This document shows, in pieces, positions 13,690 to 16,781 of a stretch of DNA of 35,151 nt. Both the position numbers and the translations under genes were made by a program. This stretch comes from Thaumarchaeota archaeon 13_1_40CM_4_38_7 (lineage in GTDB: Archaea > Thermoproteota > Nitrososphaeria > Nitrososphaerales > Nitrosopumilaceae): positions 10,277 through 45,427 of the forward strand of contig MNFB01000074.1 of assembly GCA_001917995.1 (NCBI GenBank), written 5' to 3'. The notes under the pieces were generated by a model. That model was not told where the DNA came from and did not search any database. It worked only from the letters and a program-made list of their open reading frames with translations. Numbering within the stretch: position 1 is the stretch's first letter; each line of letters begins with the position of its first letter.

Positions 13690-14862
13690 TCATGACTTTA
13701 CTTCGGCAAGTCCTACTATGGCTCTTGGAAAGACATCTTTTCGTTGTTCGCTAGGTTTCAAATATTGTTCATAACCTGTGACAGGCTGCAACGATTTTTC
13801 ATCCATGATTTTGTAATTTGATATTCTTGCTTTTCTGAATATTTGTTCTAAATCATCTTTTGAGAACCATTTTGAATAAACACCTTTCTTTGTCCTAACG
13901 ATAGAATTTTCTTCATCTTGTTTTGAATTTATTATTTCGCCAACAGTTTGTTTTACTTCTCTTCCATAGAAGGTGCGTAACCCAAAATCTTTGAAGCGTT
14001 TCTTATTAAACACTGAAATTATTATCGTCCCATGTGGTAAAGCCAATCGCTTCATCGATTCTAATAGTTGTACTTGTAAATCCATGTTTTCTTGATTGCC
14101 TAACGTTTGAAAGGTGCACACTATTACCTTGTGAATTCGGTCAAGACCTTTGTGGTTGAGATGAAAGTTCTGCGCTATACCAGTTATTGGGAATATTCTT
14201 TCATAGAGATACTGTTCAAGTCCATATTTCTTCATCAATCTAATAGAATGGGAGATCATTTCTTCAGAATAATCAATTCCAATTACATACCGTAGATTCT
14301 TGTCATACATGTCATCATATCGGTATAGGACATCAGTCTCTGAATTTTTTTTCAATTCTCTACAAGAGTTAACGCTCATCTTAGACCCCAGTAATATCAG
14401 AAAACGTCCTGGACCAGATCCTGCGTCTATGAAAGCTACTTCTTTATTCTTTAAGAGACTGTTTAGATAATTTACTATGAAAATGTCTTCAAATCGTTCA
14501 TACGCACGAGCAGACCATGCAGCCTGTGTAGGATGAACTACGTTTCTGAAATATTGTTTTGCCATAGACTTGCTAGCTAATATGCCCTTGACTAGGTCTT
14601 GTTCATTTTTGGATAGTTTGCTTAAGTGAAGTCCATCCTTAATCTTTCGTGCTAAGATTCCTTTAGTACAAATTTCTTCTCTTATTTTGGATGGCAAGAG
14701 ATTCAGGTAGCCATTTTTAAATGAATAAATTGAATTACAGTTAATACATTGAAGATCTATTTCATTGTGTTCTTGTGATTTTCCGTTTCTGAATTTTAAA
14801 GACGAGCCACACGTAGAACAGTTTGCTATGGATAAGTTTTTGTGAATCAGTGTTGACATCAT
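13690..14862 (-). CDS. SAM-dependent methyltransferase with N-terminal zinc ribbon
   Basis: 390 aa. Residues about 15-60 have two Cys pairs (CSTCGSSL and CINCNSIYSF), a probable zinc ribbon of the kind found before class I methyltransferases (Trm112-like). The Rossmann motif I is VAFIDAGSGPGRFLILLG at about 142-159. A later acidic segment is YVIGIDYSEEMISHS, and KVIVCTFQTLGN is motif IV-like. An unusual insert (about 160-190) separates motif I from motif II. The substrate is unknown. The start codon overlaps the 3' end of the upstream regulator by 4 bp (14859-14862), so the two are translationally coupled. Confidence 0.8.
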   Translation of the reverse strand: MMSTLIHKNLSIANCSTCGSSLKFRNGKSQEHNEIDLQCINCNSIYSFKNGYLNLLPSKIREEICTKGILARKIKDGLHLSKLSKNEQDLVKGILASKSMAKQYFRNVVHPTQAAWSARAYERFEDIFIVNYLNSLLKNKEVAFIDAGSGPGRFLILLGSKMSVNSCRELKKNSETDVLYRYDDMYDKNLRYVIGIDYSEEMISHSIRLMKKYGLEQYLYERIFPITGIAQNFHLNHKGLDRIHKVIVCTFQTLGNQENMDLQVQLLESMKRLALPHGTIIISVFNKKRFKDFGLRTFYGREVKQTVGEIINSKQDEENSIVRTKKGVYSKWFSKDDLEQIFRKARISNYKIMDEKSLQPVTGYEQYLKPSEQRKDVFPRAIVGLAEVKS

Positions 14863-15653
14863 TTCCTGTCCTGACTAACTACATCTTCATCGAATTGTTC
14901 ACTATTCTTTTTCTTGGTTACTTTTTGTTTTGAAGCACCTTCTTCCTTTATGTATGCATCATATGCCCGGTAAACATTTCTAATACACCTCAGATAGTTT
15001 TCAAAGTCTGGTAACTTTATTGGATCATAGAAATAATTTGAGTGTACTTTGGTAAATGTATTTTTTGAGATTCCTACTCCTTCAAGTATGTGTATAGGCT
15101 TACTATCTACTGAATGAACCCATCCAAGAGATCTAATCTTTTCTATCATCTCTTCAAATGTGGTAGCCTCATTGGTAACTATTCGTAAAATAAAATCGTA
15201 GTTTTGTCCTTCTCCCTGTACAAGATCTATTGCAGTTACAATTCCGTATTGTCTGCTTATCTCAACTAAATTGCTATACATCTCAGAATAAGGAATTACA
15301 CGACGTTCAAATAGTGGATTTTGAGTTTTTATGAAAGTATACCACTGATTATCAAACAATTTGCTTGGGTCTACTAGTATCCATTTTATCTTGTCATCCT
15401 TTTTGCTGTCTTCTGTGTTGTTATGTTCTAGTATAACGCCTTTTTTTACAAGTTCATCTATCCTGTTTTTGACATTCTCTCTGGAAAGAACATAGCCATG
15501 TTCCTCAAGATCTTTATTTGCAGTGTCTGGCGTTGCCCCGCTCTGCAACGCATGAAGAATGAGTAGATCTAGTGGGCTAATTCCATTCTTCGTCAGATTT
15601 TTTATAGGTACAACATTGTCAGGACTGTCTGTTCCTCTTCCTACCATACTCAT
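14859..15653 (-). CDS. Lrp/AsnC-like winged-helix regulator
   Basis: 264 aa. Residues about 22-90 read as a winged helix: GISPLDLLILHALQSGATPD, then the helix pair and RENVKNRIDELVKKGVILEH. Residues about 120-205 look like a ligand-binding or dimerisation half (RQYGIVTAIDLVQGEGQNYD, FEEMIEKIRSLGWVHSVDSK), similar in layout to an Lrp C-terminal ferredoxin-like fold. The C-terminal tail is charged. It leads an operon with the methyltransferase. It diverges from the zinc-finger gene at 15809 with 155 bp between them. Its target is unknown. Confidence 0.65.
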   Translation of the reverse strand: MSMVGRGTDSPDNVVPIKNLTKNGISPLDLLILHALQSGATPDTANKDLEEHGYVLSRENVKNRIDELVKKGVILEHNNTEDSKKDDKIKWILVDPSKLFDNQWYTFIKTQNPLFERRVIPYSEMYSNLVEISRQYGIVTAIDLVQGEGQNYDFILRIVTNEATTFEEMIEKIRSLGWVHSVDSKPIHILEGVGISKNTFTKVHSNYFYDPIKLPDFENYLRCIRNVYRAYDAYIKEEGASKQKVTKKKNSEQFDEDVVSQDRK

Positions 15654-15781: not shown

Positions 15782-15793
15782 TTTATAATTTTT
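15782..15793 (+). promoter_or_regulatory. TATA-like promoter for the zinc-finger/hammerhead transcript
   Basis: TTTATAATTTTT lies about 24 bp before the ATG at 15809, the right distance for a leaderless archaeal message. No comparable box is seen between 16040 and 16125, so this is the likely promoter for both the zinc-finger gene and the downstream secreted-protein gene. Confidence 0.6.
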
Positions 15794-15808
15794 AATCATA
15801 CTTGAGAC

Positions 15809-16039
15809 ATGGCTTACATACCAAAAGTCGAAAGGATTGAGGAATCTCAGTGCAGTGTTTGCTCACACATCTGTGCCAGACTATGTGTGACATGTGGAAC
15901 TGCATTTTGCAACAAGCATCTGCTATCACATGCAAGCTTGCACAAACAAGCATACCATGAGATTGTGCGAACAATACTTAGGGATGGGCTTACCGATGTT
16001 GCAAAGCATCTCGTTTCCTTTACACTAACAACTGTGTGA
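15809..16039 (+). CDS. Small B-box-like zinc-finger protein
   Basis: 76 aa, ATG at 15809. It has closely set zinc ligands: CSVCSHICARLCVTCG (Cys15, 18, 22, 26, 29), then AFCNKHLLSHASLH (Cys34, His37, His41, His45). The C-x2-C...C-x2-C-x4-C-x2-H-x3-H-x3-H pattern resembles a B-box zinc finger. The rest is a short helix and a hydrophobic tail (KHLVSFTLTTV). It likely binds protein or nucleic acid; the partner is unknown. The TGA stop at 16037-16039 comes just before the hammerhead ribozyme. It and the secreted coiled-coil gene at 16125 appear to share one transcript. Confidence 0.75.
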   Translation: MAYIPKVERIEESQCSVCSHICARLCVTCGTAFCNKHLLSHASLHKQAYHEIVRTILRDGLTDVAKHLVSFTLTTV

Positions 16040-16045
16040 TACGAG

Positions 16046-16104
16046 GATATCCCCTGAAGAGTCCGTGAGATCCGGACGAAACAACTCAAAGTTGTCGGGA
16101 GAAC
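16046..16104 (+). ncRNA. Type I hammerhead ribozyme (self-cleaving), intercistronic
   Basis: All core elements are present in order. The stem I 5' strand is UCCC (16050-16053). The core CUGAAGA is at 16054-16060 (the variable core base is A). Stem II is GUCCG (16061-16065) pairing with CGGAC (16073-16077) over a 7-nt loop. GAAA is at 16078-16081. Stem III is ACAAC (16081-16085) pairing with GUUGU (16091-16095) over UCAAA. C17 is at 16096 in a GUC triplet, and the stem I 3' strand is GGGA (16097-16100). Cleavage is expected between 16096 and 16097. Beyond 4 bp, stem I has an internal loop (extra pairs U16048-A16102 and G16046-C16104) that could contact loop II. Stem I is the open one, hence type I. 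Cleavage activity itself is inferred. Confidence 0.9.
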
Positions 16105-16114
16105 AAGGAGGTGA
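16105..16114 (+). promoter_or_regulatory. Perfect Shine-Dalgarno AAGGAGGTGA for the secreted coiled-coil gene
   Basis: This matches the archaeal 16S 3' end complement over the full AGGAGGTGA and lies 10 nt before the ATG at 16125. It begins 8 nt after the predicted ribozyme cleavage site, so the downstream product would start with 5'-OH GGGAGAAC and carry its own ribosome-binding site. It decides the start at 16125 over the ATG at 16116, which is followed at once by TGA. Confidence 0.8.
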
Positions 16115-16124
16115 AATGTGAAAG

Positions 16125-16781
16125 ATGAACGAAAAAATACCAAAAAGAGAATGGCAATCTAACTACAGTAAGAATGCTAAAGACAAGACTCAGCTTCTTC
16201 TTGCTGCAAGTGCTCTAGCATCGCTGCTTGTTGTAAGTAGCCTAGGATTTGCTTGGGCAGAGACAGATAATTCAGATGTCACAATAAAGGCAAGTGATGA
16301 CATAAAGAACAACCCAACTGCAATGAAAATACTCAAAAACATAGAATTGTTCAAGAAAAGCTATGCTGCATTACAGCAGAGGCAACAGCTTCTAGATCAG
16401 CAACAAAAGTTCATAGAAGAACAACGCCGTATTGCAAACCAATACTTGCAAATTGATCTTGCTGGCATGAATAACTTGAACAATCAAAATCTGCCAAGAA
16501 ATGCATATGCAACATTCGTATCAAAAGTGGATAACTCTACACAAGGCCTCTTCTGGGACCAGTTTGGTTTCATGGAAGACAAGCTGAGCAAGGCAAATCA
16601 AGCAAAGAACAATGTTCTCAAAAATGGAGGTAGTGTGAAAGAAGCTTGGCAAGCATACAATGACGCACTTGCAATGCACAAGAGCGATCTTGTAAGTGTT
16701 AACAAGAACTTGAATGTCAAGTATCACTTTGCGGATGCAAAGACACAGAACCTATTCAACAAGTACGGAAGGGTTCAGTAA
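16125..16781 (+). CDS. Secreted or membrane-anchored coiled-coil protein downstream of the hammerhead
   Basis: 218 aa. A basic N-terminus of about 22 residues (KREWQSNYSKNAKDK) precedes a hydrophobic segment LLLAASALASLLVVSSLGFA ending AWAETDN, a long signal peptide or signal anchor. The exported part has a Gln-rich coiled coil at about 75-105 (LQQRQQLLDQQQKFIEEQRR), then a helical region with FWDQFGFMEDKLSKANQAKN and AWQAYNDALAMHKSDLVSVN. No cysteines or enzyme motif are seen. The gene uses a strong Shine-Dalgarno and follows a hammerhead ribozyme, with no promoter of its own visible. Family not recognised. Confidence 0.75.
   Translation: MNEKIPKREWQSNYSKNAKDKTQLLLAASALASLLVVSSLGFAWAETDNSDVTIKASDDIKNNPTAMKILKNIELFKKSYAALQQRQQLLDQQQKFIEEQRRIANQYLQIDLAGMNNLNNQNLPRNAYATFVSKVDNSTQGLFWDQFGFMEDKLSKANQAKNNVLKNGGSVKEAWQAYNDALAMHKSDLVSVNKNLNVKYHFADAKTQNLFNKYGRVQ

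Follow-up and report, generated by a model that had tools for sequence, protein, structure and literature searches.

Why does a self-cleaving ribozyme lie between two genes of an ammonia-oxidising archaeon, and what might it do there? The question is raised by a 35,151-nucleotide stretch of DNA (the window), whose host belongs to the genus Ca. Nitrosotalea. The carriers of the ribozyme are acid-soil Nitrosotalea and a sister genus. An earlier note on this DNA had placed a hammerhead between a zinc-finger gene and the gene for a predicted secreted protein, and the core, the stems, the chance expectation and an independent model all confirm it. We think it likely that both genes are carried on one leaderless dicistronic transcript, which a type I hammerhead would cleave into a zinc-finger message and a secreted-protein message led by a Shine-Dalgarno (SD) sequence. 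For comparison we used 250 genomes of the family, including 37 of the genus, many of them incomplete. The record LN890280.1 of N. devanaterra has the same ribozyme as the window.

The predicted type I hammerhead occupies positions 16050-16100 (+) between the two genes. Stem I is open and consists of four pairs (UCCC/GGGA, 16050-16053/16097-16100). It is followed by the core strand CUGAAGA (16054-16060), a loop-closed stem II of five pairs (16061-16065/16073-16077), the core strand GAAA (16078-16081) and a loop-closed stem III of five to six pairs (16081-16085/16091-16095). The order is thus that of type I, with stem I open, stems II and III looped and 4/5/6 pairs in the window copy. The residues C3 U4 G5 A6 N7 G8 A9...G12 A13 A14 A15.1...U16.1 H17 are intact in the window and in 19 orthologues. 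Cleavage is predicted after C17 (C16096, that is, at 16096/16097) in a GUC triplet that follows the NUH rule of hammerheads, and the predicted downstream product begins GGGAGAAC. From this architecture we infer self-cleavage in vivo after C16096. Loop II has seven nucleotides and is of the GUGARA type, while stem I is short with an A-rich 5' flank. A tertiary contact between stem I and loop II is hinted at, though no more than hinted at, by A residues conserved on the 5' side of stem I and by invariant positions in loop II. Stem III probably has just three pairs in eight species, N. devanaterra among them, and a four-pair stem I combined with a minimal stem III could slow cleavage.

The Rfam model RF00163 (Hammerhead_1) assigned 27.6 bits to the window copy (E=7.5e-5 genome-wide) and its gathering score is 34, so a default Rfam search misses the ribozyme. 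With the type III model RF00008 (Hammerhead_3) the copy scored 19 bits against a gathering score of 48.5 and stem pairs were broken, which places it outside type III. A pattern search with loose settings (stems 3/3/3) found one hammerhead-like structure in the whole window, where 0.023 are expected, and at strict settings (4/5/5) 12 Mb of simulated sequence yielded no such structure. RF00163 also matched sequences in G049, G034 (a second site), G100, G091 and G069; these lack a proper three-stem core and were set aside.

A comparison with relatives indicated that the element is kept. Orthologues of the zinc-finger gene number 20, from 19 of the 37 Ca. Nitrosotalea genomes and from G041 of the sister genus; G043 and G090 gave weak matches only and were not counted as orthologues. 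A core-perfect hammerhead lies downstream of the gene in all 20. The earlier note had named the gene pair without the ribozyme in most relatives as an outcome that would refute its reading; this outcome was not seen, as none of the 20 lacks the ribozyme. A covariance model built from these 20 ribozymes and run over the 250 family genomes gave at least 73 bits in 24 of them, the next score being 22. The carriers beyond the 20 are G026, whose contig begins just 5' of the ribozyme, and three other sister-genus genomes. Thirty-six ribozyme columns are invariant among the orthologues, and core variation is confined to the two catalytically free positions: N7 is A, C or U, and H17 is C or A but G in no orthologue. 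Of the stem cells in the alignment of orthologues 99.2% are paired, and compensatory double changes occur at two stem II pairs. Within the gene pair no other stretch is as well conserved as the ribozyme, which has a mean identity of 86% versus 63% for the zinc-finger DNA, 66% for the secreted-protein DNA and 38% for the spacer 5' of the ribozyme. Its position is also constant across carrier loci, with 10-27 nt from the zinc-finger stop to C3 and 20-30 nt from the cut to the second ATG. In the window 10 nt separate the zinc-finger stop codon from stem I, a small correction to the earlier note, which had the ribozyme start directly after the stop.

Independent evidence for the fold came from a wider hammerhead pattern scan of GTDB genomes and IMG/VR. 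Apart from the core and a GUGANA loop II nothing was fixed in the pattern; the three inner pairs of stem II were left free. An unfiltered count showed full pairing of stem II for 57 of 63 distinct cores and for 69 of 70, where by our own estimate random letters would give about 5%. A covariation count on the wide set was discarded as circular, because its rows had been chosen for pairing, and the unfiltered count was used instead. A model made from 59 non-Nitrosotalea hammerheads scores the window copy at 57.6 bits (E=7e-15) and finds one copy per related locus, with no other match in 425 kb.

The first cistron (15809-16039, +) encodes a 76-aa B-box-like zinc-finger protein with seven invariant Cys/His residues (C15 C18 C26 C29 C34 H37 H41). 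No Pfam or NCBIfam family scored above its cut-off, and a fold search gave a weak B-box resemblance with no E-value below 0.7. The second cistron (16125-16781, +) encodes a 218-aa predicted secreted protein with an N-terminal hydrophobic signal-like segment, a member of a thaumarchaeal paralogous family, and its orthologue lies directly 3' of the ribozyme in carriers. Divergent from the pair, and co-inherited with it, is a gene for a 264-aa winged-HTH-like protein (14859-15653, -) that has weak HTH matches. It is present in 19 of the 37 genus genomes, every one a ribozyme carrier. The order methyltransferase, HTH, zinc finger, ribozyme, secreted protein is kept in 11 other species, a count in which the zinc-finger genes of G016 and G034, unscored by BLAST, were read directly from the sequence. 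Such conserved synteny shows that the locus is chromosomal.

Genomes without the ribozyme also lack the HTH and zinc-finger genes, and nearly all lack the methyltransferase. The whole unit is absent from 16 genus genomes, several of them nearly complete. Carriers and non-carriers are interleaved in an RpoB tree; the pattern is blurred by incomplete genomes but hints that the unit has been lost as a whole. The non-carrier G001 has a broken methyltransferase piece with internal stops (G001:C213:9970-10485), consistent with such a loss.

A possible layout of the transcript can be read from the flanks. The TATA box TTTATAATTT (15782-15791, +) starts 27 nt 5' of the zinc-finger ATG and is kept in 19 of 19 readable loci, 21-28 nt before that ATG; a leaderless zinc-finger message is therefore predicted. 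In 23 loci the 150 nt upstream of the second ATG contain no box resembling the conserved one, in keeping with the earlier note, which saw a single TATA-like box ahead of both genes. The leader after the predicted cut would be 28 nt long up to the ATG at 16125 and includes a perfect SD, AGGAGGTGA (16106-16114, +), conserved or nearly so in 23 loci and altered in the sister genus. The earlier note had called this SD an exception, rightly: in a 220-kb sample of N. devanaterra, SD matches of at least 9 nt precede two of 172 genes, the secreted-protein gene being one, and match lengths before genes are no different from those in random coding windows. The other perfect-SD gene in this sample, at L322:9482, is the second of a close co-directional pair, and its start seems to overlap an AbrB-like gene at that gene's end; the SD may mark second cistrons in the genus. 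After the SD the window has an ATG followed by TGA (16116-16121), in frame with the ATG at 16125. The gene of G012 opens at the matching ATG, and the window copy seems to have lost this first start. We also considered a switch in which cleavage releases the SD and rejected it, as predicted accessibility rises from 0.48-0.52 to 0.59 after cleavage, a small and inconsistent change, and the sister genus has an altered SD.

What the genomes themselves show is a conserved ribozyme, a layout with one promoter, the SD and inheritance as a unit, and the sequence data strongly support predicted co-transcription from one promoter with a self-cleavage site between the genes. In the proposed mechanism, a single leaderless transcript would start with the zinc-finger ATG or slightly upstream of it and extend across the secreted-protein gene. 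The intercistronic RNA would fold as a type I hammerhead and cut itself after C16096. The upstream product, the zinc-finger mRNA, would then close with the hairpins of stems II and III and terminate in a 2',3'-cyclic phosphate, and the downstream product would carry a 5'-OH on its SD-containing leader. Cyclic phosphate and 5'-OH ends can slow exonucleases that depend on a 5'-phosphate or a 3'-OH, and the archaeal ligase RtcB accepts such ends as substrates; these two properties might bear on the two messages here. These unusual ends and the separate leaders may allow independent stability and translation of both messages, so that the zinc-finger and secreted-protein messages would meet different fates. 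Points that speak against this reading are the short stem I and the probably minimal stem III of eight species, the score below the Rfam gathering value and the genus genomes from which the whole unit is absent.

Could the hammerhead instead be a regulated switch, its cleavage, and thereby expression of the secreted-protein gene, being altered by a ligand, by ionic conditions (pH, Mg2+) or by a protein, for example the zinc-finger protein? The constant co-inheritance of the zinc-finger gene, ribozyme and secreted-protein gene fits such a role, and with stems I and III this short, activity could depend on conditions. However, there is no additional conserved aptamer-like domain, the loops of stems II and III are short and the spacer is only 38% identical, while nothing points to binding of the ribozyme RNA by the zinc-finger protein. 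We therefore hold a switch to be unlikely. It is more improbable still that the secreted-protein gene has its own start site within the zinc-finger gene and that the ribozyme merely trims the 5' leader. A hammerhead of this kind has been suggested in the haloviruses HF1/HF2 (PMC3088659), but in 23 loci the 150 nt before the second ATG hold no TATA box of the conserved type.

Nor does a viral or selfish-element leftover devoid of a host role account well for the locus. The same ribozyme shape is abundant in viral contigs and present in proviruses, yet the Nitrosotalea ribozyme is conserved beyond both flanking genes and varies only where catalysis is free to, its synteny is chromosomal, and neither the zinc-finger gene nor the secreted-protein gene has a match in PHROGs. 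We give this explanation very little weight. A chance or inactive look-alike, with the sequence conserved on other grounds, for instance as an RNA stability hairpin, appears hardly credible: MFE folding of the window copy is no better than that of shuffles (z = -0.04), but the chance expectation, the core pattern and the independent model are all contrary to it. The reading that we prefer remains the self-cleaved dicistronic transcript.

The same shape recurs in viruses, other archaea and bacteria. Of 102 copies in viral contigs, 96 are not within an ORF, and 82 of these 96 are followed by a gene of the same orientation; the median distance from the cut to the start is 35 nt, gene starts in this wider survey being taken from simple ORF calls. 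One viral contig (L231:1332-6899, +) has eight hammerheads of this subclass, mostly intergenic, all on one strand of a region of about 5.5 kb. Copies in Nitrososphaeria and Bathyarchaeota lie closely 3' of a stop codon and 5' of predicted secreted-protein genes (L096, L126, L175, L404), and those in L107 and L400 precede provirus-like genes. In apparent nitrososphaerial proviruses from two genera (L107, L386, L400) the hammerhead sits between the same two genes, the second of which seems to encode a structural protein of the tail-tube kind or similar. Several bathyarchaeotal hammerheads (L133, L154, L159, L171) follow a small gene, 4-5 nt past its stop codon, and precede genes whose predicted products are secreted and phosphoesterase-like. 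In Legionella (L101, L108, L111, L112, L116, L121, L124) the same subclass recurs in many species, in a conserved intergenic setting of its own. An Rfam search at gathering score called a hammerhead in none of 14 such loci.

The leader after the cut in L400 is AATAGGAGGTGAG, near the Nitrosotalea SD leader. This likeness and the shared shape in viral and archaeal loci make it plausible, although unproven, that the Nitrosotalea ribozyme is of viral origin and was later domesticated; the source might have been a viral intercistronic hammerhead cassette taken over in the ancestry of Nitrosotalea and its sister genus. Intercistronic hammerheads may even be a general archaeal and viral device that splits polycistronic transcripts to yield separate SD-led 5'-OH messages, of which the copy in Nitrosotalea and the sister genus would be a vertically inherited host operon element. 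We advance this broader view tentatively, as somewhat less than an even chance.

The ribozyme class is known; new, it appears, is a vertically kept and probably operon-splitting copy in a cellular chromosome, present in a cultured species too. None of the papers searched pairs a hammerhead with Nitrosotalea; an earlier mention is possible, for example in Gupta and Swati 2016, reportedly the earlier main survey of archaeal hammerheads. The role of hammerheads in prokaryotes thereby becomes testable at one spot, with one gene pair and two dozen genomes. As Ca. N. devanaterra is in culture, mapping of RNA ends can address the role of the ribozyme directly. The locus draws attention, too, to a viral and archaeal subclass of hammerheads that escapes Rfam searches at default settings.

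With known type I hammerheads (RF00163; Perreault et al. 2011, PMC3088659) the window copy shares the common core, the three stems, the type I order and the NUH triplet. It differs in its sub-gathering score, short stem I, A-rich 5' flank and GUGARA-type loop II, and in its fixed place in a host operon. The RAGATH-1 hammerhead (RF03152) has a core with an extended 5' region in common with it, and the copy scores 19.1 bits under that model versus a gathering score of 56.3, which leaves it outside the family. The HHphage hammerhead of HF1/HF2 likewise has an archaeal context and a cut just 5' of a start codon; its cleavage site lies 13 nt upstream of a gene, and a transcript 5' end maps at most 3 nt from that site, a precedent for the reading preferred here (PMC3088659). 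HHphage is viral and has a core variant with an insertion near C3, whereas the window ribozyme has a standard core and lies between two genes of a cellular chromosome. Bacterial hammerhead and twister ribozymes are enriched near Mu-like phage genes, according to work cited in PMC10085705. These are also tied to particular genes, with several per region in some phages (compare L231). They are phage-associated, whereas the window ribozyme resides in a vertically inherited host gene pair.
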